Shown: positions 2,392 to 19,385, numbered from the stretch's first letter. The stretch: 64,000 nt of DNA from an uncultured Chryseobacterium sp. (GCA_913776245.1 CAJYLO010000002.1:1-64000); one strand, 5' to 3'. Made by a program: numbers and translations. The notes: generated from the sequence alone by a model not told the origin.

Positions 2392-2718
2392 GTGGGGGCA
2401 ACCAAAACAGAACATTTTACCGAGCAGCAAAACAGAATTGCCAGCATCGCAAAAGCTTTAGGGCATCCGGCGAGAATTGCCATCATCGAATATTTGATGA
2501 AAGTGAATGAATGCATCTGTGGAGATATCGTGAATGAACTTCCGCTAGCTCAGCCAACGGTTTCACAACATTTGAAAGAACTCAAAAATGCGGGAATCAT
2601 TAAAGGAAATATCGAAGGTAATTCAATTTGCTATTGTATTGATGAAAAAGTAATCGAAATTATTAATTTTTATTTTTCAAAAGTCATCGAAACCGTTTCT
2701 AAAGAAAAATGTTGTTAA
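2392..2718 (+). CDS. arsR: ArsR/SmtB family transcriptional regulator
   Basis: wHTH with LGHPARIAIIEYL and LPLAQPTVSQHLKELKNAGI; CxC (ECICGD) metalloid-site-like motif; GTG start. Confidence 0.9.
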   Translation: MGATKTEHFTEQQNRIASIAKALGHPARIAIIEYLMKVNECICGDIVNELPLAQPTVSQHLKELKNAGIIKGNIEGNSICYCIDEKVIEIINFYFSKVIETVSKEKCC

Positions 2719-2737
2719 ACTTTTTTTGAAATACAAT

Positions 2738-2754
2738 ATCGTAATATTGCAATA
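2738..2754. promoter_or_regulatory. putative ArsR operator 2
   Basis: Exact 17-bp direct repeat (ATCGTAATATTGCAATA) of operator 1, upstream of the DUF6428-like gene. Confidence 0.6.
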
Positions 2755-2785
2755 AACCAAATAATTAATTTAAAATCTTACTAAT

Positions 2786-3250
2786 ATGACTCTTGAACAA
2801 ATCAAAGCGATACTTTCGACACTGGAAAATGTAGAATTTCAGTTGGAAAACGGAACTTTCGTACCGGAACACTTCCACGTTACTGAAGTTGGTCAAATCA
2901 CAAAAAACTTCATTGATTGCGGCGGTACGATTCGAAATGAAAAAGTCGTTAATTTCCAGCTCTGGAATGCCGATGACTATGAACATCGCCTTAAACCCGG
3001 AAAATTACTCAACATCATCAGACTTTCGGAAGAAAAACTGGGCATCGAAAATTCTGAAATCGAAGTAGAGTATCAATCTGATACAATTGGAAAATATGAT
3101 TTAGAATTTAATGGACAACATTTTATTTTGAAAAATAAAACAACAGCTTGTCTGGCTCAGGATGCCTGCAAAATTCCGACAGAAAAAACAAAAAGGAATT
3201 TATCCGAGTTAAGTTCTAACTCCTGCGCTCCCGGAAGTGGATGTTGCTAA
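2786..3250 (+). CDS. DUF6428-like ars-operon protein with Cys-rich C-terminus
   Basis: Position between arsR and arsC; C-terminal SCAPGSGCC. Confidence 0.7.
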   Translation: MTLEQIKAILSTLENVEFQLENGTFVPEHFHVTEVGQITKNFIDCGGTIRNEKVVNFQLWNADDYEHRLKPGKLLNIIRLSEEKLGIENSEIEVEYQSDTIGKYDLEFNGQHFILKNKTTACLAQDACKIPTEKTKRNLSELSSNSCAPGSGCC

Positions 3251-3261
3251 ATAAAAAAATT

Positions 3262-3678
3262 ATGAGTAAAAAAATCTTGGTGCTTTGTACGGGAAACAGT
3301 TGCAGAAGCCAGATTGCAGAAGGCTATCTAAGATATTTTGCAAAAGAAAAAGCGAAAATTTACAGCGCTGGCGTAGAAACTCACGGTGTGAATCCAAAAG
3401 CCATTGCGACAATGAAAGAAGACGGAATCGACATTTCCATTCATACTTCCAATAATATCGAGGAATATAAAAACATCGCCTTTGATTTTGTCATTACGGT
3501 TTGTGATAACGCCAAAGAACGATGTCCATTCTTTCCCTCAAAAGCTGTAAAATTTCATCATAATTTTCCTGATCCGGCAAAGACTACCGGAACTGAAGAT
3601 GAGATATTGGAAGAATTTAGAAAAGTCAGAGAACAAATCAAGAATTATTGTTTTAAATTCGTCAAAGAAAATCTTTAA
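3262..3678 (+). CDS. arsC: arsenate reductase, LMW-PTP-like ArsC
   Basis: KILVLCTGNSCRSQIAEGYLR, VITVCDNAKERCPFFP; internal ATG at 3262 preferred to 3241. Confidence 0.88.
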   Translation: MSKKILVLCTGNSCRSQIAEGYLRYFAKEKAKIYSAGVETHGVNPKAIATMKEDGIDISIHTSNNIEEYKNIAFDFVITVCDNAKERCPFFPSKAVKFHHNFPDPAKTTGTEDEILEEFRKVREQIKNYCFKFVKENL

Positions 3679-6803: not shown

Positions 6804-8558
6804 ATGAAGAAACTATTATTAATTCCTTTAATACTTGTATTCTATTCAATTTTTTCTCAGCAGAAAACGTTCTGTAATCCTATTAATATAGATTACGGCT
6901 ATACGCCTTTCGAGGTTTTTTCGAAACAAGGAAAACACCGTGCAACGGCTGATCCGGTTATTGTCAACTTCCAGAAAAAACTATTTCTGTTTTCTACCAA
7001 TCAGGAAGGTTACTGGTACTCTGATGATATGCTGAACTGGAAATTTGTTTACAGAAAATTCCTGCGGGACAACAAATATACCCATGATCTTAATGCTCCT
7101 GCAGTCTGGGCGATGAAAGATACATTATATGTCTTCGGCTCTACTTGGGAACAGGATTTTCCGATCTGGAAAAGCACCAATCCGACAAAAGACGATTGGA
7201 AAATTGCTGTTGACACTTTAAAAGTGGGTGCCTGGGATCCGGCATTTCATTATGATGAGGATAAAAATAAATTGTATCTTTATTGGGGTTCCAGTAACGA
7301 ATGGCCGCTTCTTGGAACCGAAGTCAAAACCAAAACTTTGCAGTCGGAAGGTTTCGTAAAGCCTGTCATCAGACTAAAGCCGGAAGATCATGGCTGGGAA
7401 AGATTCGGAGAATATAACGATAATGTTTTTCTTCAGCCATTTGTGGAAGGCGCCTGGATGACCAAATACAAAGACAAATATTATCTGCAATACGGCGCAC
7501 CAGCAACGGAATTCAGTGGTTATTCTGATGGCGTCTATGTTTCCAAAAACCCTTTAGAAGGTTTTGAATATCAGCAGCACAATCCATTTTCTTACAAACC
7601 GGGAGGTTTTGCAAGAGGCGCAGGCCACGGTGCAACTTTTCAGGATAATTTTGGAAACTGGTGGCATATTTCCACGATTTTCATTTCTACAAAAAATAAT
7701 TTTGAAAGACGATTAGGAATTTGGCCGACAGGATTTGATAAAGATGATGTGATGTACACCAACACCGCTTATGGCGACTATCCTACTCTTCTTCCTCAAT
7801 TTGCTCAGGGAAAAGATTTTTCAAAAGGGTTATTTCCGGGTTGGATGTTACTCAATTATAATAAACCAGTACAGGTCTCTTCGACTTTGGGTGGCTATCA
7901 TTCCAATTATGCAGTGGATGAGGACATCAAGACTTATTGGTCTGCCAAAACCGGAAATGCCGGCGAATGGTTCCAAACTGATCTTGGAGAAGTTTCAACG
8001 ATTAATGCGATTCAGGTCAATTATGCGGATCAGGATGCAGAGTTTATGGGCAAAACGCTGGGCAAAATGCATCAGTATAAAATCTACGGCTCCAATGACG
8101 GCAAAAGCTGGAAAGTAATTGTTGACAAATCAAAAAACCAAACCGATGTTCCGCACGACTACATCGAATTGGAAACACCTGCGAAAGCCAGATTCCTGAA
8201 AATGGAAAACCTGAAAATGCCAACAGGTAAATTTGCACTAAGCGGTTTCCGGGTTTTTGGAAAAGGAGCCGGAATGAAACCTGGGAAAGTTCAGAACTTC
8301 GTGCCATTGAGAGCTGACCCCAAAAAATATGGCGAAAGAAGGAGCATCTGGATGAAGTGGCAGCAAAATCCTGATGCTGACGGCTATGTCATTTATTGGG
8401 GAAAATCACCGGACAAATTATACGGAAGCATTATGGTTTACGGCAAAAACGAATATTTCTTTACGGGAGCAGACAGAACAGATGCATATTATTTTCAGAT
8501 TGAGGCGTTTAATGCCAATGGAATCTCCGAAAGAACGGAAGTTATAAAATCAGAATAA
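6804..8558 (+). CDS. secreted family 43-like glycoside hydrolase with discoidin (F5/8C) and FN3-like C-terminal domains
   Basis: Signal peptide; HRATADPVIVNF, APAVWAM, GAWDPAFHYDEDKNKLYLYWGSS; DLGEVSTINAIQVNY discoidin-like segment. Confidence 0.85.
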   Translation: MKKLLLIPLILVFYSIFSQQKTFCNPINIDYGYTPFEVFSKQGKHRATADPVIVNFQKKLFLFSTNQEGYWYSDDMLNWKFVYRKFLRDNKYTHDLNAPAVWAMKDTLYVFGSTWEQDFPIWKSTNPTKDDWKIAVDTLKVGAWDPAFHYDEDKNKLYLYWGSSNEWPLLGTEVKTKTLQSEGFVKPVIRLKPEDHGWERFGEYNDNVFLQPFVEGAWMTKYKDKYYLQYGAPATEFSGYSDGVYVSKNPLEGFEYQQHNPFSYKPGGFARGAGHGATFQDNFGNWWHISTIFISTKNNFERRLGIWPTGFDKDDVMYTNTAYGDYPTLLPQFAQGKDFSKGLFPGWMLLNYNKPVQVSSTLGGYHSNYAVDEDIKTYWSAKTGNAGEWFQTDLGEVSTINAIQVNYADQDAEFMGKTLGKMHQYKIYGSNDGKSWKVIVDKSKNQTDVPHDYIELETPAKARFLKMENLKMPTGKFALSGFRVFGKGAGMKPGKVQNFVPLRADPKKYGERRSIWMKWQQNPDADGYVIYWGKSPDKLYGSIMVYGKNEYFFTGADRTDAYYFQIEAFNANGISERTEVIKSE

Positions 8559-8585: not shown

Positions 8586-8625
8586 AAGCTTTTGAAGTAA
8601 TTCTTCGAAAGCTTTTTTATTTTTT
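8586..8625 (+). terminator. intrinsic terminator after the GH43 gene
   Basis: AAGCTTTTGAAG-TAATT-CTTCGAAAGCTT followed by a T tract. Confidence 0.75.
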
Positions 8626-8788: not shown

Positions 8789-9913
8789 ATGGAGTTTTTT
8801 CTGACATCAGAAGATAATGATGACCGACCGATTTACATTACCGGGAATTTTAATAAATGGAATCCGAAAGATTCAAAATTCAGAATGGAAAAGATGGATG
8901 ACAGTAACTATCATATTAACATTCCTGATGAATTATTAAATGATGAGATAGAATATAAGTTTACAAAAGGTGGCTGGCAAAATGTAGAAATTGACAAATA
9001 TGACAACATTACGCCCAACAGGAAAGTAAAAAAAGAAAAACATAAAAGCCGCAATCTTGTAGAAAAGTGGCGACTGAACTGGGGTCCGTTCAAACAGGAA
9101 TTTTTCCCGATTGTGGAATTGGTAGATGATGAATTTTATATCCCTCAGTTGGACAGGACGAGAAAAATCTGGGCTCTTTTGCCTTATGATTATTATAATT
9201 CCGGGAAGCATTATCCGGTTTTGTATCTGCAGGATGCACAGAATTTATTCAATGACGGTTCCGAATTTGGAAACTGGGAGATTGATAAAAAGCTCGCACT
9301 TCTCGCAGAATACGGACGAGGCGATTTAATCGTCATTGCAGTAGAACACGGCGAAGATGACCGAATCAAAGAATATGTTTTTGATAACGAAGATGTGACA
9401 AAAAATGCGGAAGGAAAAAAGTATCTTAGATTCATTACAGATACATTGAAACCTTGGATTGATAAAAATTATCGAACAAAAAAAGACCGGGAAAATACTG
9501 GAATTGGAGGAAGTTCTTTAGGTGGTTTGATTAGCATTTATGGAGGATTTCTTTATCCTGAAGTCTACTCCAAATTGCTGATTTTTTCGCCATCACTTTG
9601 GGTAGAGCCGGAAAACAATTTTCCGATGATAAGGTTCGAAAATCCTTATAAACTGAAGGTTTATCTCTACGGTGGTAAAAAAGAAGGCTCCCGAATGGTG
9701 GGAAGAATAAGATTATTTGAAAAGGCTTTAAAAAAATTAACAACTCAGAAATCATTTGACTTTGAAGTCAGAACGAACATCAATGACCAGGGAACACACC
9801 AGGAATTTTTCTGGTCGCAGGAATTTCCAAGAGCCGTAGAATGGCTTTACATTGACAGTCTGGAAAGTCCTGTGAAAGCCAAAAATGAATTAGAAGATAA
9901 TTTAAATCAATAG
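8789..9913 (+). CDS. alpha/beta hydrolase (enterochelin-esterase-like) with N-terminal CBM48/AMPK-type domain
   Basis: IYITGNFNKWNP...; YPVLYLQDAQNLF, GIGGSSLGGLISIYGG nucleophile elbow. Confidence 0.85.
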   Translation: MEFFLTSEDNDDRPIYITGNFNKWNPKDSKFRMEKMDDSNYHINIPDELLNDEIEYKFTKGGWQNVEIDKYDNITPNRKVKKEKHKSRNLVEKWRLNWGPFKQEFFPIVELVDDEFYIPQLDRTRKIWALLPYDYYNSGKHYPVLYLQDAQNLFNDGSEFGNWEIDKKLALLAEYGRGDLIVIAVEHGEDDRIKEYVFDNEDVTKNAEGKKYLRFITDTLKPWIDKNYRTKKDRENTGIGGSSLGGLISIYGGFLYPEVYSKLLIFSPSLWVEPENNFPMIRFENPYKLKVYLYGGKKEGSRMVGRIRLFEKALKKLTTQKSFDFEVRTNINDQGTHQEFFWSQEFPRAVEWLYIDSLESPVKAKNELEDNLNQ

Positions 9914-9969
9914 CGTCGGGCTTTAGCCCGATGAAAAATTAAAGATTGTATTTGGCTTTAGCCAAAACT
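9914..9969. repeat. paired REP-like hairpins
   Basis: tcgggctttagcccga and ttggctttagccaaa in the intergenic gap. Confidence 0.6.
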
Positions 9970-9979
9970 TAAAAAAATT

Positions 9980-11383
9980 ATGATCAAAATTTACAATAAA
10001 AAAGAATCAACAACACAAAACATATATCTGTTCAGCGAAGACGATTGGGAACAGGAAAAAAGCTCGCATCCGAACGTTGAATTGTTCTTCAACGGAAAAA
10101 AGAGCGAAGTTTTTATCAAAACAGGTTCCAATGAAATCAACTTTTTTATCGGAATTGGAAAAGATACAAAAGGATTTGAAATCCAGGCGATTGCTAACAA
10201 ATTTTCGAATGATTATAAAAAAAATCTGCAGGCAGTTCCAACTTCGGCTCATTCAAAGTTAGGATTGGATTTAACGGAAGAATTTGTGAAAGGCTTGTTT
10301 TTGGGAACTTACCTCTACCCTTTCGAGAAATCTCATCCTTTTTGGCAGGAGAATTTTGAACTTCATTTTGAAAATATTTCGGAAGACGAGGCTAAAAATT
10401 TAGCCTTGAAAACCGAAGCGCTTTGCAACGGACAATTTGCCGGAATGGAATGGCTGAATAAACCTGCTAATCACAAAAAAGTGGGCCAGATTTCAGATTT
10501 CCTGAAATCAACGGCGGAAAAATATGGCTTAAAATATAAAGCTTTCAACAGAGAGCAATCGATCCAGGAAGGCTTGGGTGCTTTTGTTGCTGTGAATCAG
10601 GGAAGTTCGCAGGAAGCGGCTTTTACGATTATGGAATACAATTGCGGAAAAGAAGGTGCCAGAACTTTCGGTTTGGTTGGGAAATGCGTGTTGTTCGACA
10701 CAGGCGGAATTTCCATCAAGCCATCGGACAATATGCATTATATGAAAAGCGATATGGGCGGAGCAAGCGCAGTTATCGGTGCGTTGATTACAGCCTCTGA
10801 ACTAAAATTACCTGTCAATATCATTGCCATTCTTCCGATTACGGATAATGCTGTTTCGGAAAATGCGTATTTGCCAAGCGATGTTGTGACAGCTTATAAC
10901 GGAAAGACTATTGAAGTCCTCAATACCGATGCAGAAGGCAGAATGACTTTGGCAGACGGACTTTCGTACTTATCAAAAAACTATAAAACCGATGTTTTGA
11001 TTGATCTGGCGACATTGACAGGAAGTTCGGTTAGAATGTTTGGCTACACTTGCGGTGCATATTTTTCTAACAATGAAGAGCTTAAAAAGAAACTGGAACA
11101 ATCAGCTGACAAAACGAATCAGCGCCTTTGGAATTTGCCGCTTTGGGATATCTGGAAAGATGATTTCACTTCGGATGTTGCGGATTTCAAGAACATTTCA
11201 ATGAAACCTTTCGGAGACTGCATTATTGCAGGAAAATTCCTGGAACAGTTTATAGAAGGTCACGAAAATTGGGCGCATTTAGATATTGCCGGCGTCGCAT
11301 TTGGAAATGTCGGTTATGCCAAAGATAAAGCTGCCACAGGTTACGGCGTTCAGCTTTTATTAGATTTAATTGAAAACTACTAG
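9980..11383 (+). CDS. M17 leucyl aminopeptidase family protein
   Basis: LVGKCVLFDTGGISIKPSDNMHYMKSDMGGASAV and NTDAEGRMTLADGL. Confidence 0.93.
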   Translation: MIKIYNKKESTTQNIYLFSEDDWEQEKSSHPNVELFFNGKKSEVFIKTGSNEINFFIGIGKDTKGFEIQAIANKFSNDYKKNLQAVPTSAHSKLGLDLTEEFVKGLFLGTYLYPFEKSHPFWQENFELHFENISEDEAKNLALKTEALCNGQFAGMEWLNKPANHKKVGQISDFLKSTAEKYGLKYKAFNREQSIQEGLGAFVAVNQGSSQEAAFTIMEYNCGKEGARTFGLVGKCVLFDTGGISIKPSDNMHYMKSDMGGASAVIGALITASELKLPVNIIAILPITDNAVSENAYLPSDVVTAYNGKTIEVLNTDAEGRMTLADGLSYLSKNYKTDVLIDLATLTGSSVRMFGYTCGAYFSNNEELKKKLEQSADKTNQRLWNLPLWDIWKDDFTSDVADFKNISMKPFGDCIIAGKFLEQFIEGHENWAHLDIAGVAFGNVGYAKDKAATGYGVQLLLDLIENY

Positions 11384-11449
11384 ACAAGAATAAGAAAGTA
11401 AATCTTTGTACATTTTACTTTTTACATCATACAAAATTTGAAATTGAAT

Positions 11450-12655
11450 ATGGAAAAAACGATAGTCTGCATCTCCTGTTATTACAAAGGTTATGACTTT
11501 ATGGATGAGTGCAAAAAACTCGGCAACAAGGTTATTCTCATCACTTCAGAAAACCTGAAAGAGAAAAACTGGCCTTGGCACGCAATAGATGAGGTTTATT
11601 ATATGCCGGAAATCGAACCTTCGGTTTGGAATCTTGACCATTTAGTTCAGGGATTCGCATACCTGATGAAAAATCACCAGATCGACGCGGTAATCGCTTT
11701 GGATGATTATGATGTAGAAAAAGCAGCCATGATCCGGGAAACGTATCGTATTCCGGGAATGGGACAAACAACACATCGCTATTTCCGGGATAAGCTGGCA
11801 ATGCGACAGCAAGCTAAAGACAACGGCATTTCTGTTCCGGAATTTTCTTCCATTTTCAATGATGCCAAGCTGCATCAGTTCACGCAGGATGTTCCCGGAC
11901 CTTGGGTTCTGAAACCACGCTCTGAAGCGTCCGCAAGCGGAATTAAGAAAATCAATTCGGCGGAAGAACTCTGGCCGGCGGTGGAAAATCTTGGTGATGA
12001 ACGGTATAAATTCCTTCTGGAGTCCTTCAAGCCGGGTGATGTTTACCACGTTGACTGTCTGGTTTACAATAAAGAAATCGTGTTTTCATGTTTCTCAAAA
12101 TACCTTTCTCCGCCAATGAAAGTTTCTCACGAAGGTGGTGTATTCCGTACCAAAACGCTGGACAAAAACTCCGATGAAGCAAAAGGTCTGAACGAAATCA
12201 ATCAACAGGTTTTAGAAAAATTCGGAATTAAAAATGGCGCAACTCACAGCGAATACATCAGAGGAACTGACGGACAATATTATTTCCTTGAAACCTCTTC
12301 CAGAGTTGGCGGAGCGCATATTCCTGATATGGTGGAAGCCGCAACCGGTGTTAATATCTGGAGAGAATGGGCAAGGCTGGAAAATGCATTATTACAGGAA
12401 ACTCAATATTCCGTTGAAGAAAGTCATAAATTATATTCAGGACTGATTGTGGCATTAGCAAAAGACAAACATCCCAATATTGAGAATTTGAAAAGCGACG
12501 AGGTAGAAAAATTTCTGCCGATCGATTATCATATCGGAATTGTTTATAAATCCGACAATACCGAAAGAATTCAGCAAAAATTAGATGAAGCTGCAACCTA
12601 TGTCACAGAAGAGATTCTGAATATCATTCCTCCAAAAGACAAACCGACAAGTTAA
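11450..12655 (+). CDS. ATP-grasp domain ligase
   Basis: PWVLKPRSEASASGIKKINS, YYFLETSSRVGGAHIPDMVEAATGVN. Confidence 0.87.
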   Translation: MEKTIVCISCYYKGYDFMDECKKLGNKVILITSENLKEKNWPWHAIDEVYYMPEIEPSVWNLDHLVQGFAYLMKNHQIDAVIALDDYDVEKAAMIRETYRIPGMGQTTHRYFRDKLAMRQQAKDNGISVPEFSSIFNDAKLHQFTQDVPGPWVLKPRSEASASGIKKINSAEELWPAVENLGDERYKFLLESFKPGDVYHVDCLVYNKEIVFSCFSKYLSPPMKVSHEGGVFRTKTLDKNSDEAKGLNEINQQVLEKFGIKNGATHSEYIRGTDGQYYFLETSSRVGGAHIPDMVEAATGVNIWREWARLENALLQETQYSVEESHKLYSGLIVALAKDKHPNIENLKSDEVEKFLPIDYHIGIVYKSDNTERIQQKLDEAATYVTEEILNIIPPKDKPTS

Positions 12656-12718
12656 GGTCAATATTTCTGAGTTTAAAGTTTTATCATTCATCAATTATCA
12701 TTTATCAATCATAAAAAG

Positions 12719-13432
12719 ATGCCTCAAATCACACATACAGATTACTATTCACATATTCTCGGAATGAGTCTTCAGGTCGAAGTTACAGGACATTTTGGTT
12801 ATCCGATTATTATGTTTCCCACTTCGCAGGGTTCTTATACTCAGAATGCCGATTTTCACTTGAACGGAAGTATTTCGCATTTCACCAATAACGGAATTTT
12901 GAAATTATTCAATGTTCAGACGATTGACAAATTCAGTTTTTATGACAAAGGCATTTCGCCTTACGAAAGAATCAGGAACTACGAAATGTACGTTCAGTTT
13001 TTAGTTCAGGAATTCATCCCTTACATTCAGAAAACACATAATACGCATCGTATAGGCATTGCGGGTGCAAGTTTCGGAGGTTATCACGCCGCGAATTTTG
13101 CGTTCAGGTTTCCGGATTTGGTCTCGCATCTTTTCTGCCTGTCAGGCGCTTTTAACATCAGGAATTTTATGGATGGCTATCAGGATCAACTGATTTATTT
13201 CAATTGTCCCGACGAATTTGTGAAAAATGACGAAGCGTGGAAATACAAACATATGCACATTGTCTTAAGCACTTCAGACCGTGATATTTGCCTGGAGCCA
13301 ACTAGAAAAATGGCAGGAATCTTAACCGAAAAAGGAATCAACCATTGGTATGATGAACAAAAATGGATAGACCACGATTGGGTGCTTTGGCGAATGGTTT
13401 TCCCGACATTTATTGGAAGATTTTTTGGGTAA
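12719..13432 (+). CDS. esterase family alpha/beta hydrolase
   Basis: RIGIAGASFGGYHAANFAFRFPDLVSHLFCLSGAF. Confidence 0.85.
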   Translation: MPQITHTDYYSHILGMSLQVEVTGHFGYPIIMFPTSQGSYTQNADFHLNGSISHFTNNGILKLFNVQTIDKFSFYDKGISPYERIRNYEMYVQFLVQEFIPYIQKTHNTHRIGIAGASFGGYHAANFAFRFPDLVSHLFCLSGAFNIRNFMDGYQDQLIYFNCPDEFVKNDEAWKYKHMHIVLSTSDRDICLEPTRKMAGILTEKGINHWYDEQKWIDHDWVLWRMVFPTFIGRFFG

Positions 13433-13537
13433 TTTAAAAAAAATGTAAAATCGTAAAATCGAATAATTGTAAAGTATTAATAATGAATTATACAAAGCAA
13501 CGATTCATCAAATCAACAAATTAACAAATTATAAACT

Positions 13538-14488
13538 ATGGCAAAAAAAATTGGAATTTTATTCGGAATGGAAGATACATTTCCGTGGGCTTTTATTGAT
13601 AAAGTCAACGAACTGGGAAAAGGCGAATATATTGCAGAACCAGTTCAAATTGATAAACTGGAGCAAGGTGCAGATTATGGCTATGCTGTGATTATCGACA
13701 GGATTTCGCAGGATGTTCCTTTCTACAGAGCTTATCTTAAAAATGCGGCGGTGAATGGAACTTACGTCATCAACAATCCATTTTGGTGGAGTGCAGATGA
13801 AAAATTTTTCAACAACGCATTAATGTCAAAAATCGGAATTCCATTGCCGAAAACCGTTTTGCTGCCTTCTCACGAAAGACCAACCAACACGTCGGAAACA
13901 TCTTTCAGAAACCTGAAATTCCCTCACGACTGGGAATATATTTTCAATTATATCGGATTCCCTGCGTATATGAAACCTCACGACGGCGGCGGCTGGAGAA
14001 ATGTTTACCGTGTGGAAAACCCGGAAGATATGTGGGCAAAACACGCAGAAACGGAGCAACTGGTAATGATGGTTCAGGAAGAGATCGTTTTCGAGGATTA
14101 TTACCGTGTTTATTGTTTAGGCAGGAAATATGTTCACATTATGCCTTACGAACCGAGAAATCCTCACCATTTAAGATACGCTACAACACACAAAACAGAA
14201 GGAAAAGAACTGGAAAAATTATTGAAAACGATTACGGACTACACCATTAAAATGAATAAAGCATTGGGTTACGATTTCAACACCGTAGAATTTGCTGTTC
14301 GAGACGGTATTCCTTACGCCATTGACTTCTGTAATCCGGCGCCAGATGCAGACAGAAACTCTGTTGGCGAAGAAAATTTCCAATGGATTGTAGAACACGC
14401 CGCAAAACTGGCGATTGAAAAAGCGAAAGATTACAAACCAGGAAAAATCAATATCGACTGGGGAACATTTGTAACCAATCAGCTTTAA
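13538..14488 (+). CDS. ATP-grasp/glutathione synthase-like ligase
   Basis: GFPAYMKPHDGGGWRNVYRV, FNTVEFAVRDGIPYAIDFCNPAPDADR. Confidence 0.82.
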   Translation: MAKKIGILFGMEDTFPWAFIDKVNELGKGEYIAEPVQIDKLEQGADYGYAVIIDRISQDVPFYRAYLKNAAVNGTYVINNPFWWSADEKFFNNALMSKIGIPLPKTVLLPSHERPTNTSETSFRNLKFPHDWEYIFNYIGFPAYMKPHDGGGWRNVYRVENPEDMWAKHAETEQLVMMVQEEIVFEDYYRVYCLGRKYVHIMPYEPRNPHHLRYATTHKTEGKELEKLLKTITDYTIKMNKALGYDFNTVEFAVRDGIPYAIDFCNPAPDADRNSVGEENFQWIVEHAAKLAIEKAKDYKPGKINIDWGTFVTNQL

Positions 14489-14499
14489 TCAGATTCTAA

Positions 14500-14528
14500 A
14501 CCTTCAGGGTTTTAGAAACCTTGAAGGT
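14500..14528. repeat. palindromic intergenic element
   Basis: ACCTTCAGGGTTTtagAAACCTTGAAGGT. Confidence 0.65.
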
Positions 14529-14568
14529 CGAAATAACAAACTACTAATTTTAAACACAAAGAAAAAAT

Positions 14569-15672
14569 ATGCACAAATTCACCATTGGTGTCGAGGAAGA
14601 ATATCAGATCATAGATGCGGAAAGCCGCGATCTGGTTTCCCATGTTTCCAAAATAATAGAAGGAGGAAAGGCTGTTCTCAGCGAAAATCTAAAACATGAG
14701 ATGCACGAGTCGGTTGTTGAGATGGAAACAGGCATCTGTGAAAATATTCAGCAGGCAAGACAGGAATTGACCGACCTCAGAAGGCACCTTGTAAAAACAG
14801 CTCATGACCAAGGTTTACGGGTTTCAGGAGGTGGAACTCATCCTTTTTCTCACTGGAAGGACAATGTCATTACACGAGCCGAAAGATATGACAAAATCGT
14901 GAGTGATATGGGCGATGTGGCAAGATCCAACCTTATTTTTGGGCTACACGTTCACATCGGTATTCCTGACCGTGAAGAAGGAATCAGAATCCAGAATGTG
15001 ATGCGTTATTTTTTACCTCACGTTTATGCCTTGTCCACCAATTCTCCGTTTTGGGTTGGCAGATTAACCGGTTTCAAATCATACAGACAGGAAGTTTTTG
15101 CTAAGTTTCCAAGAACCGGACTGCCAAGTTACTTCGGAAGTGTGGCGGAGTTTGATGCCTACGTGAATCTGATGGTGAAAACAGGAACTATTGATAATGC
15201 TAAGAAAATCTGGTGGGATCTGAGAGTCCATCCATTCTATCCTACGATTGAATTCAGGATTTGCGATATGCCGCTGACTATTGATGAAACCGTTTGTCTC
15301 GCAGCGATTATGCAATCGTTGGTTGCCAAGATATATAAGATGCATCAGCAAAATACAAGCTACAGAAGCTACAGAAGACTTCTGCTTACCGAAAATAAAT
15401 GGCGTGCCTCCAAAGATGGCATTGATGCACATCTCATTGATTTTGGGAAAGAAGCGAGCGTTCCTTATAAAGATTTGTTAGAAGAATTATTGGCTTTCAT
15501 AGATGATGTTGTGGATGATTTGGGTTGCAGAAAAGAAGTTGAATTTGCAAGAGAAATTATCAAAATGGGAACCGGCGCAGACAGACAGCTAAAAGTGTTC
15601 CACGAAAGCGGCGGCGACATGAAAAAAGTAGTGGATTATATGATCTACGAAACCGAGAAGGGACTGCTTTAA
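14569..15672 (+). CDS. carboxylate-amine ligase, YbdK/GCS2 family
   Basis: FTIGVEEEYQIIDAESRDLVSH, LHVHIGIPDREEGI, EFRICDMPLTIDETV. Confidence 0.92.
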   Translation: MHKFTIGVEEEYQIIDAESRDLVSHVSKIIEGGKAVLSENLKHEMHESVVEMETGICENIQQARQELTDLRRHLVKTAHDQGLRVSGGGTHPFSHWKDNVITRAERYDKIVSDMGDVARSNLIFGLHVHIGIPDREEGIRIQNVMRYFLPHVYALSTNSPFWVGRLTGFKSYRQEVFAKFPRTGLPSYFGSVAEFDAYVNLMVKTGTIDNAKKIWWDLRVHPFYPTIEFRICDMPLTIDETVCLAAIMQSLVAKIYKMHQQNTSYRSYRRLLLTENKWRASKDGIDAHLIDFGKEASVPYKDLLEELLAFIDDVVDDLGCRKEVEFAREIIKMGTGADRQLKVFHESGGDMKKVVDYMIYETEKGLL

Positions 15673-15741
15673 TAATTGATTATTTATAGATGTTTTGATC
15701 TCTTCTTACGTTTATCAATTATAAAGATATTTTCAATTTTG

Positions 15742-15749
15742 TAAATTTG
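15742..15749 (+). promoter_or_regulatory. -7 element TAAATTTG of the TA module
   Basis: TAnnTTTG 13 bp before ATG 15763. Confidence 0.5.
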
Positions 15750-15762
15750 CAAAAAATTGGTT

Positions 15763-15993
15763 ATGAACATCGAAGCAACCAAATTAGAACTGATGAAACT
15801 TCTTTTGAATACTCAGAAAGAAAGTGTTCTCGAAAAAATAAAAGAGATTTTCCAGAAAGAGTATCCTCAGGATTGGTGGGAAGAATTAAGTAAAGAGGAA
15901 CACCAGGAAATTGAATTGGGACTAAAAGAAGCTGAAAACGGACAACTTAAATCACATCAAGATGTGATGAAATTGTTTAATGAATGGAAATAG
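15763..15993 (+). CDS. putative antitoxin of a ParE/RelE-type module
   Basis: Small protein overlapping the start of a ParE/RelE-like gene; ATG at 15763 preferred to 15757. Confidence 0.65.
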   Translation: MNIEATKLELMKLLLNTQKESVLEKIKEIFQKEYPQDWWEELSKEEHQEIELGLKEAENGQLKSHQDVMKLFNEWK

Positions 15994-16277
15994 AAATCGT
16001 CTGGACAAATCGTGCAGAAAGAGGACTTTTAAAAACTTTAAAATATCTGAAGTCTGATTGGACAAGTAAAGAGATTCTCCGCTTGGAATATAATATCAAT
16101 AAATTTATTGAGTTGATAAAACGTCAGCCAAAACTCTTTCCTAAAACAGAAAAATTCAAAAACCTTCATAAAGGAATGGTTGATGAAAACAACTACATTG
16201 TTTACAGAATAGATGCCAGGAAGAAGCAAATTATCATAATCAATTTTAGAGACGGTAAACAAAAATCAATTTATTAA
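15984..16277 (+). CDS. type II toxin-antitoxin RelE/ParE family toxin
   Basis: EIVWTNRAERGLLKTLKYLKSDW...YIVYRIDARKKQIIIINFRDGKQ. Confidence 0.78.
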   Translation: MEIEIVWTNRAERGLLKTLKYLKSDWTSKEILRLEYNINKFIELIKRQPKLFPKTEKFKNLHKGMVDENNYIVYRIDARKKQIIIINFRDGKQKSIY

Positions 16278-16281
16278 AAGT

Positions 16282-17124
16282 ATGAATATGAGTAAAAATG
16301 ATGTAAGAATTGCACTTTTGGATATGAATAACAATCATCCGAATCAAGGAATGAGAAACATAAAAGAGCTGTCGAAGGCATTTCAGGAGCAGTCGGAATA
16401 CGAGGTTTCTGTGGCTGTTTTTGATGTCCGTTATAAAAATGAAATGCCTAATGTAGAGGATTTTGACATCTTTATCTCTTCCGGTGGTCCGGGAAATCCG
16501 CATCGTGAAGGTTATGAATGGGAACAGAAATTCGCTGATTTCCTGACACAGATCTGGGACCATAACAAAACTAACGAACAGAAAAAGTATTTGTTCTTGG
16601 TTTGCCATTCTTTCCAACTGGCCGTTATCCATTTCGGAATAGCAAACGTCTGCAGGAGAAAATCCTATTCTTTTGGCGTGATGCCGATTCATAAATCTGA
16701 GGAAGGCGACAGTGAGTTTCTTTTCCAGAATCTTCCGGATCCTTTTTATGCAGTAGATTCCAGAGCATATCAATGCATCGAACCCAATCAGGAAAAATTA
16801 GACGAATTGGGTATGAAAATAGTGGCTTTGGAAAAAATCCGCCCTACGGTTCGTTTGGAAAGAGCGATGATGGCGGTGAGATTTTCCGATGAAATTTTCG
16901 GCACACAGTTTCACCCGGAAGCTGATCCTGTCGGATTTCTTAAAAATCTGGAAGATGAAAAAAATAAGGAAGCGATGATTGAAACATTCGGGATGGAAAA
17001 ATACCTGGAAACCATTGACAGAATGAATGACGAAGATAAAATTATTCTCACACAGTCGCAGATTATCCCGAAATTTCTACAAGCCGCAGCCGGGCAAATT
17101 GTTAAAACCTTAGTCTTTAATTAG
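16282..17124 (+). CDS. class I glutamine amidotransferase-like protein
   Basis: FLFLVCHSFQLAVIHFG nucleophile and FGTQFHPEADP His/Glu; ISSGGPGNPH. Confidence 0.83.
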   Translation: MNMSKNDVRIALLDMNNNHPNQGMRNIKELSKAFQEQSEYEVSVAVFDVRYKNEMPNVEDFDIFISSGGPGNPHREGYEWEQKFADFLTQIWDHNKTNEQKKYLFLVCHSFQLAVIHFGIANVCRRKSYSFGVMPIHKSEEGDSEFLFQNLPDPFYAVDSRAYQCIEPNQEKLDELGMKIVALEKIRPTVRLERAMMAVRFSDEIFGTQFHPEADPVGFLKNLEDEKNKEAMIETFGMEKYLETIDRMNDEDKIILTQSQIIPKFLQAAAGQIVKTLVFN

Positions 17125-17207
17125 AGTAAAATGTGAGAAGTTAGAAGTAAGATGTTTAATACTTCTTATTTCTTACTATCAACTTTTAACTTAGAAAAAA
17201 CACAACT

Positions 17208-18389
17208 ATGATTCCAAAATACAGAGCTCAGTTTAATGAGGAATTTTCTCCGGATAAGTATCAGAAAGCTCAGCAATTGATAACGGAAAAATGCGGTCAC
17301 GAAGCCGCGTTTCGACTTTCTGAAAGTCCGATTTTCCTTACTAATTATTTTTGGAAAAAGCTGGATGATGCCTCTCAATCTATTATTTCTCAAATCAAAG
17401 AAATGCCTGATGATGAGTTGAGAAAAGCGATTCCTGCCAACTGTAATGTCCCGAATGACACTAAAAAGCCACATTTTATGGCAATCGATTTTGGAATCTG
17501 CCAGGATGAGAACGGAAATGTGATTCCACAGTTGATAGAATTACAAGCTTTTCCGAGTTTGTTCGGATTTCAGAAGCTGTTTGAAGAAGTAATTGCTGAA
17601 GTTTATCCTTTTCTTAATGAGCTGAGAAATTCGCTTCCGAAAGATCAATATATCAAAAAGCTGAAGCAAGTTATCGTTGGAAATGAGAATCCTGAAAATG
17701 TCATTCTTTTGGAAATTTATCCTGAAAAACAAAAAACGGCGATCGATTTCGTTTTGACCGAGCAATATCTGGGTATCAAAACAGTCTGTCTGACTAAAGT
17801 TAAAAAAGATGGAAAAAAATTATTCTATGAAAATAATGGAAAATTAGTTCCAATTAATAGAATCTACAACCGTGTGATTTTTGATGAGCTGGATAAAATC
17901 GAAGGTCTGAAAACGGAATTTGACTTTCGGGAAAATGTTGATGTAGAATGGATCACACACCCGAACTGGTTTTTCAAAATCTCAAAATATATCCTTCCCA
18001 AACTGAAGCACGAATTTGTTCCGAAAAGTTATTTCTTACCAGACTTTCCTGAAACTGAACAGTTAGAAAATTTTGTTCTGAAACCACTTTTTTCATTTGC
18101 AGGAAGTGGTGTGAACCTGAATCCTACACAGGAAATCATCAATCAAATTGAAGATAAAGAAAATTATATCCTTCAAAGAAAAGTGACTTATGCACCACTT
18201 TTTGAAGACATCAATGGCGAATTTTCCAAAGCAGAAATCCGCTTACTTTTTGCGTGGAATCCGGAAGAATTTAATCCTGAACTAATGGTAAATCTTGTGA
18301 GAATGACCAAAGCTGCAATGGTGAATGTGGATTTTAATAAAAAAGATGCGATCTGGATTGGGAGTTCTATGGCATTTTTTGAGAAATAA
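17208..18389 (+). CDS. uncharacterised protein, ATP-grasp-like C-terminal half
   Basis: NFVLKPLFSFAGSGVNLNPTQEII resembles the ATP-grasp ATP-binding segment; colinear with the ligase cluster. Confidence 0.55.
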   Translation: MIPKYRAQFNEEFSPDKYQKAQQLITEKCGHEAAFRLSESPIFLTNYFWKKLDDASQSIISQIKEMPDDELRKAIPANCNVPNDTKKPHFMAIDFGICQDENGNVIPQLIELQAFPSLFGFQKLFEEVIAEVYPFLNELRNSLPKDQYIKKLKQVIVGNENPENVILLEIYPEKQKTAIDFVLTEQYLGIKTVCLTKVKKDGKKLFYENNGKLVPINRIYNRVIFDELDKIEGLKTEFDFRENVDVEWITHPNWFFKISKYILPKLKHEFVPKSYFLPDFPETEQLENFVLKPLFSFAGSGVNLNPTQEIINQIEDKENYILQRKVTYAPLFEDINGEFSKAEIRLLFAWNPEEFNPELMVNLVRMTKAAMVNVDFNKKDAIWIGSSMAFFEK

Positions 18390-18396
18390 TATTATG

Positions 18397-18426
18397 TATC
18401 TTTGATACTATCAAATGATACTATCA
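18397..18426 (+). promoter_or_regulatory. fic promoter/operator: TATCTTTG -7 overlapping two TGATACTATCA palindromes
   Basis: TATCTTTG 18397-18404; TGATACTATCA at 18403-18413 and 18416-18426. Confidence 0.65.
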
Positions 18427-18431
18427 AAAAT

Positions 18432-19385
18432 ATGAAGCCACCCTACGAGATCACGTCAGAAATATTAAAACATATTGCATCAATTTCAGAAAAAATTGGA
18501 ATCGTGAACGCCAAATTTTTGACTAGAACCGATCCTAAACTTCGAAAGCAAAATCAGATCAAAACCATTCATTCTTCTTTAAGTATAGAAGGAAACACAC
18601 TTTCTGAAGACCAAATAACGGCTATTTTAGAAAACAAACGTGTCGTAGGGCCTCAGAAAGATATCATTGAAGTTCTGAACGCTTTGACTATTTACAAAAA
18701 TCTGACTCAACTAAAATTTGACAAAGAAAAAGATTTCTTGAAAGCACATCAATCCTTGATGAAAAATCTCATAGAAAATCCTGGAAAATATAGAACGAAA
18801 AGTGTTGGAATAGTAAAAGGGTCTAAAGTTGAACATATTGCACCACCAGCGGAAAACCTTTCTTTTTTAATGAAAGACCTTTTTGCATATTTGAAGGATA
18901 GATCAGAATTAACATTAATAAAAAGTTGTGTATTTCATTACGAAATGGAATTCATCCATCCCTTTTTGGACGGAAATGGTAGAATGGGAAGACTTTGGCA
19001 GACTTTGATTTTGATGAATGAGTATCCAATTTTTGAATTCATACCTTTTGAAACTTTGATTTCAAAAAATCAGGAAGAATATTATAACGCCTTATCAGCT
19101 TCTGACAAAGAGGGAAAATCGACCAAGTTCATAGAATATATGTTGCAAATCATCGATAGATCGCTTTCGGAACTATTAGAAAACTCGACAAAAAAACTTT
19201 CTGAAAGTGATAGGATTTTTATTTTTATAGAAAATATTAATCAGGAATTTACAAGAAAAGACTATATTGATTATTTCAAAAATATTTCTTCTGCAACGGC
19301 GAGCAGGGATTTGAAATCAGCTGTTAATAATAAAATTATCACAAAAACAGGTGACAAAAAACTGACCGTTTACAATAAAAAATGA
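18432..19385 (+). CDS. Fic family protein (class II: N-terminal inhibitory motif)
   Basis: HPFLDGNGRMGR Fic motif; SLSIEGN inhibitory-type motif; ATG 18432 preferred to TTG 18402. Confidence 0.92.
   Translation: MKPPYEITSEILKHIASISEKIGIVNAKFLTRTDPKLRKQNQIKTIHSSLSIEGNTLSEDQITAILENKRVVGPQKDIIEVLNALTIYKNLTQLKFDKEKDFLKAHQSLMKNLIENPGKYRTKSVGIVKGSKVEHIAPPAENLSFLMKDLFAYLKDRSELTLIKSCVFHYEMEFIHPFLDGNGRMGRLWQTLILMNEYPIFEFIPFETLISKNQEEYYNALSASDKEGKSTKFIEYMLQIIDRSLSELLENSTKKLSESDRIFIFIENINQEFTRKDYIDYFKNISSATASRDLKSAVNNKIITKTGDKKLTVYNKK

Follow-up and report, generated by a model that had tools for sequence, protein, structure and literature searches.

The run of genes at positions 8789-18389 of the stretch of DNA analysed here (64,000 nucleotides from an uncultured Chryseobacterium sp., referred to below as the window) raises the question of what a set of amide-bond-forming enzymes, encoded beside a peptidase and two esterases, might make. 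Our reading is that the cluster probably carries the genes for an NRPS-independent amidoligase pathway whose product is a small gamma-glutamyl or amide-type peptide metabolite, and the pathway itself is well supported. The host genome (3.13 Mb, 88% complete, Bacteroidota) has Epilithonimonas species as its closest named relatives, with 91% identity in AG3. The eight colinear open reading frames of the initial annotation are all intact, lie on the + strand near the positions first drawn, and follow the order EstA, M17, AG1, EstB, AG2, GCS2, GAT, AG3. That gene list overlooked one insertion, a type II toxin-antitoxin pair lying between GCS2 and GAT. The features are as follows.

8586..8614, + strand, terminator-like hairpin upstream of the cluster (12-pair stem, then a T run)
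8789..9913, + strand, EstA, PF00756 esterase, 374 aa (PF00756, E 5e-26)
9980..11383, + strand, M17 leucyl-type aminopeptidase, 467 aa (PF00883, E 3e-101)
11447..12655, + strand, AG1, ATP-grasp enzyme resembling L-amino-acid ligases, 402 aa (ATP-grasp_4; 4wd3, 3vot/BL00235)
12719..13432, + strand, EstB, short PF00756-like esterase, 237 aa (PF00756, E 1e-9)
13538..14488, + strand, AG2, ATP-grasp ligase of predicted RimK/LysX/Ddl fold, 316 aa (AlphaFold2 model and Foldseek; no Pfam family)
14569..15672, + strand, GCS2, YbdK-family carboxylate-amine ligase, 367 aa (PF04107, 2e-67; PRK13515)
15763..16277, + strand, inserted type II toxin-antitoxin pair (ParE-like toxin, PF05016, below cut-off)
16282..17124, + strand, GAT, class I glutamine amidotransferase, 280 aa (PF00117, 2e-11)
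17208..18389, + strand, AG3, ligase of predicted glutathione-synthetase/glutathionylspermidine-synthetase fold, 393 aa (AlphaFold2 and Foldseek)

The hairpin sets the cluster apart from an upstream glycosidase gene (6804-8558), and no + strand terminator was seen in the gaps between cluster genes. AG1 most likely starts at the ATG at 11447, not at the TTG at 11438. Domain searches placed EstA, M17, EstB, GCS2 and GAT in firm families; AG1 fell into a general ATP-grasp family, and AG2 and AG3 yielded almost nothing. An Rfam search near the cluster returned no element, and the Bacteroidota promoter pattern showed no excess over chance across the window. Two Flavo-1 RNAs (RF01705; 161-267 and 22036-22119) lie in the window away from the cluster, REP-like palindromes (TCGGGCTTTAGCCCGA, CTTCAGGGTTTTAGAAACCTTGAAG) are found in the intergenic gaps at 9914-9970 and 14502-14530, and an ArsR-like regulator gene followed by a gene for an arsenate-reductase-like phosphatase occupies 2392-3678. 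Directly downstream of the cluster, a gene for a Fic-domain protein (18402-19385) matches SoFic in PADLOC (3.9e-45). It is the only such match, none of the eight cluster genes corresponding to a known anti-phage defence system, and that reading was set aside. Spread of the cluster by plasmids was also considered, and no match was found.

The GCS2-GAT adjacency is interrupted by an antitoxin-like gene (15763-15993) and a ParE-like toxin gene (15987-16277), the latter scoring 22.0 bits against PF05016, just under the cut-off of 23. Among 80 named relatives, only E. bovis carries a toxin-antitoxin pair at this position, and the pair is therefore a passenger outside the pathway. A TAAATTTG box lies just 5' of the pair and is promoter-like for Bacteroidota by eye.

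Gene order was compared by two routes. A search of 198 Bacteroidota genomes for AG2 was positive in 72, and in the other 71 of these 11-20 kb around the gene was mapped; a scan for AG3 relatives, with one genome per species, gave 80 further named loci. Four architectures emerged. The first (A), the full eight-gene order seen here, belongs to the Chryseobacterium group (Chryseobacterium, Epilithonimonas, Elizabethkingia, Halpernia and Soonwooa) and is kept there by ~30 named species. The second (B), in Flavobacteriaceae and Cytophagales, has a divergently transcribed PF00756-like gene, the counterpart of EstA outside the Chryseobacterium group, followed by EstB-AG2-GCS2-GAT-AG3; examples include Maribacter, Hymenobacter, Dyadobacter and Arsenicibacter, and the core also recurs across the 71 mapped genomes. 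In the third (C), an M29 aminopeptidase takes the position of GAT, in Ignavibacteria, several Verrucomicrobia (Spartobacteria) and two further families. The fourth (D), in families f17, f20, f24, f28 and f30, has the order AG2-F9-GAT; in most cases EstB precedes it and a second esterase or AG1 follows. F9, a circularly permuted ATP-grasp protein, stands in the place of AG3 next to GAT. Its best solved relative, 3n6x, is also the second fold match of AG3, and any kinship between the two would rest on this common match, since their direct profile comparison is weak (7.5% probability).

The arrangement is conserved far beyond chance, its order being kept in tens of named species, and is not a local accident. 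The GAT stop and the AG3 start share 4 bp in many Flavobacteriaceae, and GCS2, GAT and AG3 all overlap in one genome (L191). One genome (L195) has an M42 peptidase gene beside GAT-AG3, and an M24 gene lies nearby in a single case. Elsewhere, one genome has AG3 in fusion with a Na+/solute symporter (PF00474; L182:4637-7240), and in a related genome AG3 lies 18 bp downstream of such a symporter (L185:6984-8369). In f23/f26 genomes the AG3 gene shares a few bases with an Amidohydro_3 gene (L187:6747-9388 and L188:6050-8763), and an Amidohydro_3-like gene precedes GAT in L218.

Across the 198 genomes, AG2 was found in 72, GCS2 in 62, GAT in 50 and AG3 in 60, with all four in 34 and none in 122. 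Within families the pattern was near all-or-none: f2 had three genomes with all four, 14 with none and one lacking only AG2, f15 had seven with all and eight with none, and f33 had four with all and two with none. Fisher tests on co-occurrence gave extreme values; since such tests ignore kinship, presence was also shuffled within families 20,000 times, and for none of the ten gene pairs was the observed agreement reached in any shuffle (0/20,000). Linkage itself is not universal, which counts against the pathway to some degree: in several families AG2, GCS2 and AG3 lie apart, although they still occur together. Scattering without co-occurrence, named in the initial annotation as an observation that would speak against a pathway, is therefore not the pattern in relatives, where gain and loss of the genes coincide even when they are unlinked. 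This shows that the core ligases and GAT form a co-inherited functional unit, common to ~30% (about a third) of the sampled Bacteroidota and to some Verrucomicrobiota.

Two members of the core could be placed firmly. GCS2 was correctly identified at the outset as a YbdK/GCS2 carboxylate-amine ligase: besides its PF04107 match, it scores 530 bits against the NCBIfam model PRK13515, passing the cut-off of 371, and its nearest solved structures are those of YbdK (1r8g/1tt4). Against the glutamate-cysteine ligase equivalog it reaches 365 versus a cut-off of 409, and other such models score lower still. GAT has the catalytic triad and the glycine-rich oxyanion loop of class I glutamine amidotransferases, and the catalytic residues said to be retained (Cys108, His211 and Glu213), together with the GGPG loop, are invariant in 21 aligned relatives.

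AG3 was nearly unannotated before structure prediction. Its only sequence domain match is to GSP_synth (6.8e-4, 19.4 bits versus a cut-off of 29.3), and no amidase domain was found in its 393 residues, so that a glutathionylspermidine synthetase function is not supported by its domains; polyamine use by AG3 is a candidate activity at most. The AlphaFold2 model (pLDDT 91, pTM 0.90), made for what had been listed as an ATP-grasp-like protein, is matched in Foldseek by yeast glutathione synthetase (1m0w, 4e-15) and 3n6x (6e-15) at a TM of about 0.6, and further by human glutathione synthetase, homoglutathione synthetase, Gss, trypanothione synthetase, YgiC, YjfC and Cp1B. We therefore predict with high confidence that AG3 has the fold of eukaryotic-type glutathione synthetase and glutathionylspermidine synthetase.

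This fold raises the strongest rival to the proposed pathway, owing to YgiC/YjfC and Gss: a gamma-glutamyl-peptidyl polyamine resembling glutathionylspermidine, for which GCS2 would make the gamma-glutamyl bond and AG3 would add spermidine or another polyamine. The fold of AG3 is common to Gss, trypanothione synthetase, YgiC and YjfC, its best profile match in the PDB is YgiC (0.014), and YgiC/YjfC have been described as peptidylpolyamine synthetases (PMC12568646). The same type of fold, however, occurs in glutathione synthetase and Cp1B, whose substrates are amino acids; the recurrent cluster neighbours include no recognised polyamine gene, and GAT would be left without an obvious role. We consider such a conjugate unlikely, if a serious competitor.

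The other two ligases are more general in character. Both had been called ATP-grasp enzymes from the start, and for AG1 the ATP-grasp_4 domain agrees. Among solved structures it comes closest to the L-amino acid ligases 4wd3 (4e-15) and 3vot (BL00235, 2e-10), and although it falls below the cut-offs of the NCBIfam models, it belongs with these ligases by sequence relationship; the corresponding activity is predicted. AG1 occurs in 43 of the 198 genomes, all 43 of which also carry AG2. It is linked to the core in a few groups only, and many core-bearing genomes are without it. AG2 has a weak match to a RimK-family model (TIGR00768, 1.8e-8, below cut-off), and its AlphaFold2 model (pLDDT 92.5) is matched best by ArgX (3vpc, 5e-14), then by Ddl, LysX and PsnB, in keeping with its status as a second ATP-grasp ligase. 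The predicted fold is a general one that does not fix the substrate. The presumed ATP and metal residues (Lys146, GGGW, and E251/D263/N266) are >90% conserved, the exceptions being three outliers.

Matches of AG2 to PsnB and LysX/ArgX, whose substrates are a peptide or a carrier protein, are what would be expected if an enzyme of RimK/PsnB-type fold modified a ribosomal peptide, as in graspetides, or tagged a protein. A precursor, however, is lacking from the cluster gaps, where a search found no small open reading frame conserved between distant genera; conserved small frames lay in the flanks or resembled shadow frames of neighbouring genes. The search covers near-cluster precursors only, within which limit it agrees with the initial annotation, excludes the locus from graspetide clusters as such, and favours a non-ribosomal amidoligase route. 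With no export gene in the cluster, and with the relatives of GCS2, AG1 and AG3 acting on small molecules, a ribosomal product or protein tag seems improbable.

The chance is slimmer that the cluster makes a glutathione-like low-molecular-weight thiol, with GCS2 forming gamma-Glu-Cys, AG3 adding the last residue and the PF00756 esterases acting like S-formylglutathione hydrolase. The combination of GCS2 with a glutathione-synthetase fold does follow the logic of glutathione synthesis, but GCS2 lies below the glutamate-cysteine ligase equivalog cut-offs, and AG1, AG2 and GAT would go unexplained. Bacillithiol synthesis, moreover, is present with or without the cluster: BshC was found in 196 of the 198 genomes and is not complementary to it, which rules out replacement of bacillithiol.

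The remaining genes encode hydrolases. EstA had been described as a CBM48-type esterase, of which the esterase assignment stands (PF00756) and the CBM48 part does not, no such domain being detected at E 1e-3. It is Fes/feruloyl-esterase-like by sequence matches, and its nearest solved relatives are named 'Isoamylase N-terminal domain protein', the alignment spanning the esterase part only. EstB, the second esterase, was likewise recognised by PF00756. Its gene adjoins AG2 in most clusters, and 70 of the 72 genomes with AG2 have a relative. Serine-esterase residues are kept in most relatives: the GxSxG region around the nucleophile, Asp189 and a His-Asp-Trp motif. Homologues in two f15 genomes (L053:10464-11189 and L062:10558-11271) lack the catalytic Ser and His and are still clustered; they are pseudo-esterases, which hints at a binding role there. 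The M17 aminopeptidase assignment is sound, with the metal-site motifs VGKCVLFDTGG, KSDMGG and NTDAEGR visible in the sequence. It is the sole M17 peptidase found in the 88%-complete genome, and may therefore be a housekeeping enzyme of general role that is merely located in the cluster. The gap between M17 and AG1 is near-constant across Chryseobacterium (140-142 bp, L107-L131) and without a conserved open reading frame, possibly a promoter or leader.

Ligation-based catabolism, in which ligases would tag a foreign amine as in Puu-like gamma-glutamylation for degradation by the peptidase and esterases, is the least likely reading of all, since the two esterases and aminopeptidase beside the ligases and the few genomes with AG3 fused to or adjoining a Na+/solute symporter, or overlapping an Amidohydro_3 gene, are offset by the lack of any recurrent oxidase or dehydrogenase, the cost to catabolism of three to four ATP-consuming ligases, and a GAT that matches PF00117 and not the gamma-glutamyl-hydrolase family.

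For the NRPS-independent amidoligase pathway, a route could run as follows. GCS2 would use ATP to activate the gamma-carboxylate of glutamate (or an analogue) and join it to an amine, and AG3 would then activate the remaining carboxylate as an acyl phosphate, both as expected from their families; this would be the step order of glutathione or trypanothione synthesis. GAT, which adjoins AG3 or its substitute where these genes are clustered, would probably supply AG3 with ammonia taken from glutamine and so yield a primary amide. GAT is absent from 20 genomes that retain AG2, GCS2 and AG3, so ammonia transfer cannot be universal, and these genomes may either dispense with it or use free ammonia instead. 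AG2, which is LysX/Ddl-like, and AG1 where present might add further residues or make a dipeptide building block. EstA, EstB and the aminopeptidase (of family M17 in this genome and M29 in other phyla) could serve in trimming, deprotection or turnover of the product, and the recurrence of esterases with aminopeptidases of unrelated families (M17 and M29, singly M42 and M24) suggests peptide trimming or turnover. The cluster lacks a transporter gene in this genome, and its product therefore probably stays inside the cell.

The non-ribosomal amidoligase pathway first suggested for this locus thus gains from conserved order, co-inheritance and the lack of a precursor; its product we propose from sequence, and its substrates, order of steps and synthetic direction we infer, since no cluster enzyme has a characterised close relative. 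More tentatively still, the product may be an amidated gamma-glutamyl oligopeptide of an undescribed class (a cofactor, osmolyte or signal), made without ribosome or NRPS by a core of GCS2, a glutathione-synthetase-fold ligase and a class I amidotransferase. A co-inherited set with intact recognisable catalytic sites implies a useful, overlooked metabolite, and the AG3 fold with the GCS2/GAT pairing turns an 'unknown ligase cluster' into a matter for concrete, cheap assays. The unusual standalone ligases are also potential amide-bond biocatalysts.

Several known systems can be set beside this one. Carbamoyl phosphate synthetase (CarA/CarB) partners a class I glutamine amidotransferase with an ATP-grasp enzyme, as the cluster pairs GAT with AG3, but AG3 has a different ATP-grasp-type fold and the link between the two here is one of neighbourhood only. 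The NAGGN osmolyte system is recognised by asnO, ngg and M42 peptidase genes. As in glutathione and trypanothione synthesis, the cluster unites a GCS2-family ligase with a ligase of glutathione-synthetase fold; unlike them, its GCS2 is of the YbdK/PRK13515 type, it adds AG1/AG2 and an amidotransferase, and it exists alongside bacillithiol synthesis. AG1 is related by sequence to L-amino-acid ligases (BL00235, 4wd3) and to the dapdiamide synthase DdaF, but is part of a larger set and is missing from many core genomes. In predicted fold, AG3 resembles Cp1B and YgiC/YjfC, which are standalone amide-bond ligases, Cp1B making a pseudodipeptide in NRPS-free E-64 synthesis (PMC12568646). AG3 shares only about 12-16% identity with them, however, and the E-64 cluster is without a GCS2 or GAT partner. 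Amidoligase clusters as a kind are already known from comparative genomics. Iyer, Abhiman, Burroughs and Aravind reportedly predicted amidoligase neighbourhoods in 2009 that combine ATP-grasp and GCS2-type ligases with peptidases and GATases and no NRPS. In the literature searched, which leaves the 2009 survey aside, no report of this gene set or its product was found. Relative to the 2009 neighbourhoods, the present analysis contributes the fold assigned to AG3, the exchange of M17 for M29 and the statistics on co-inheritance.
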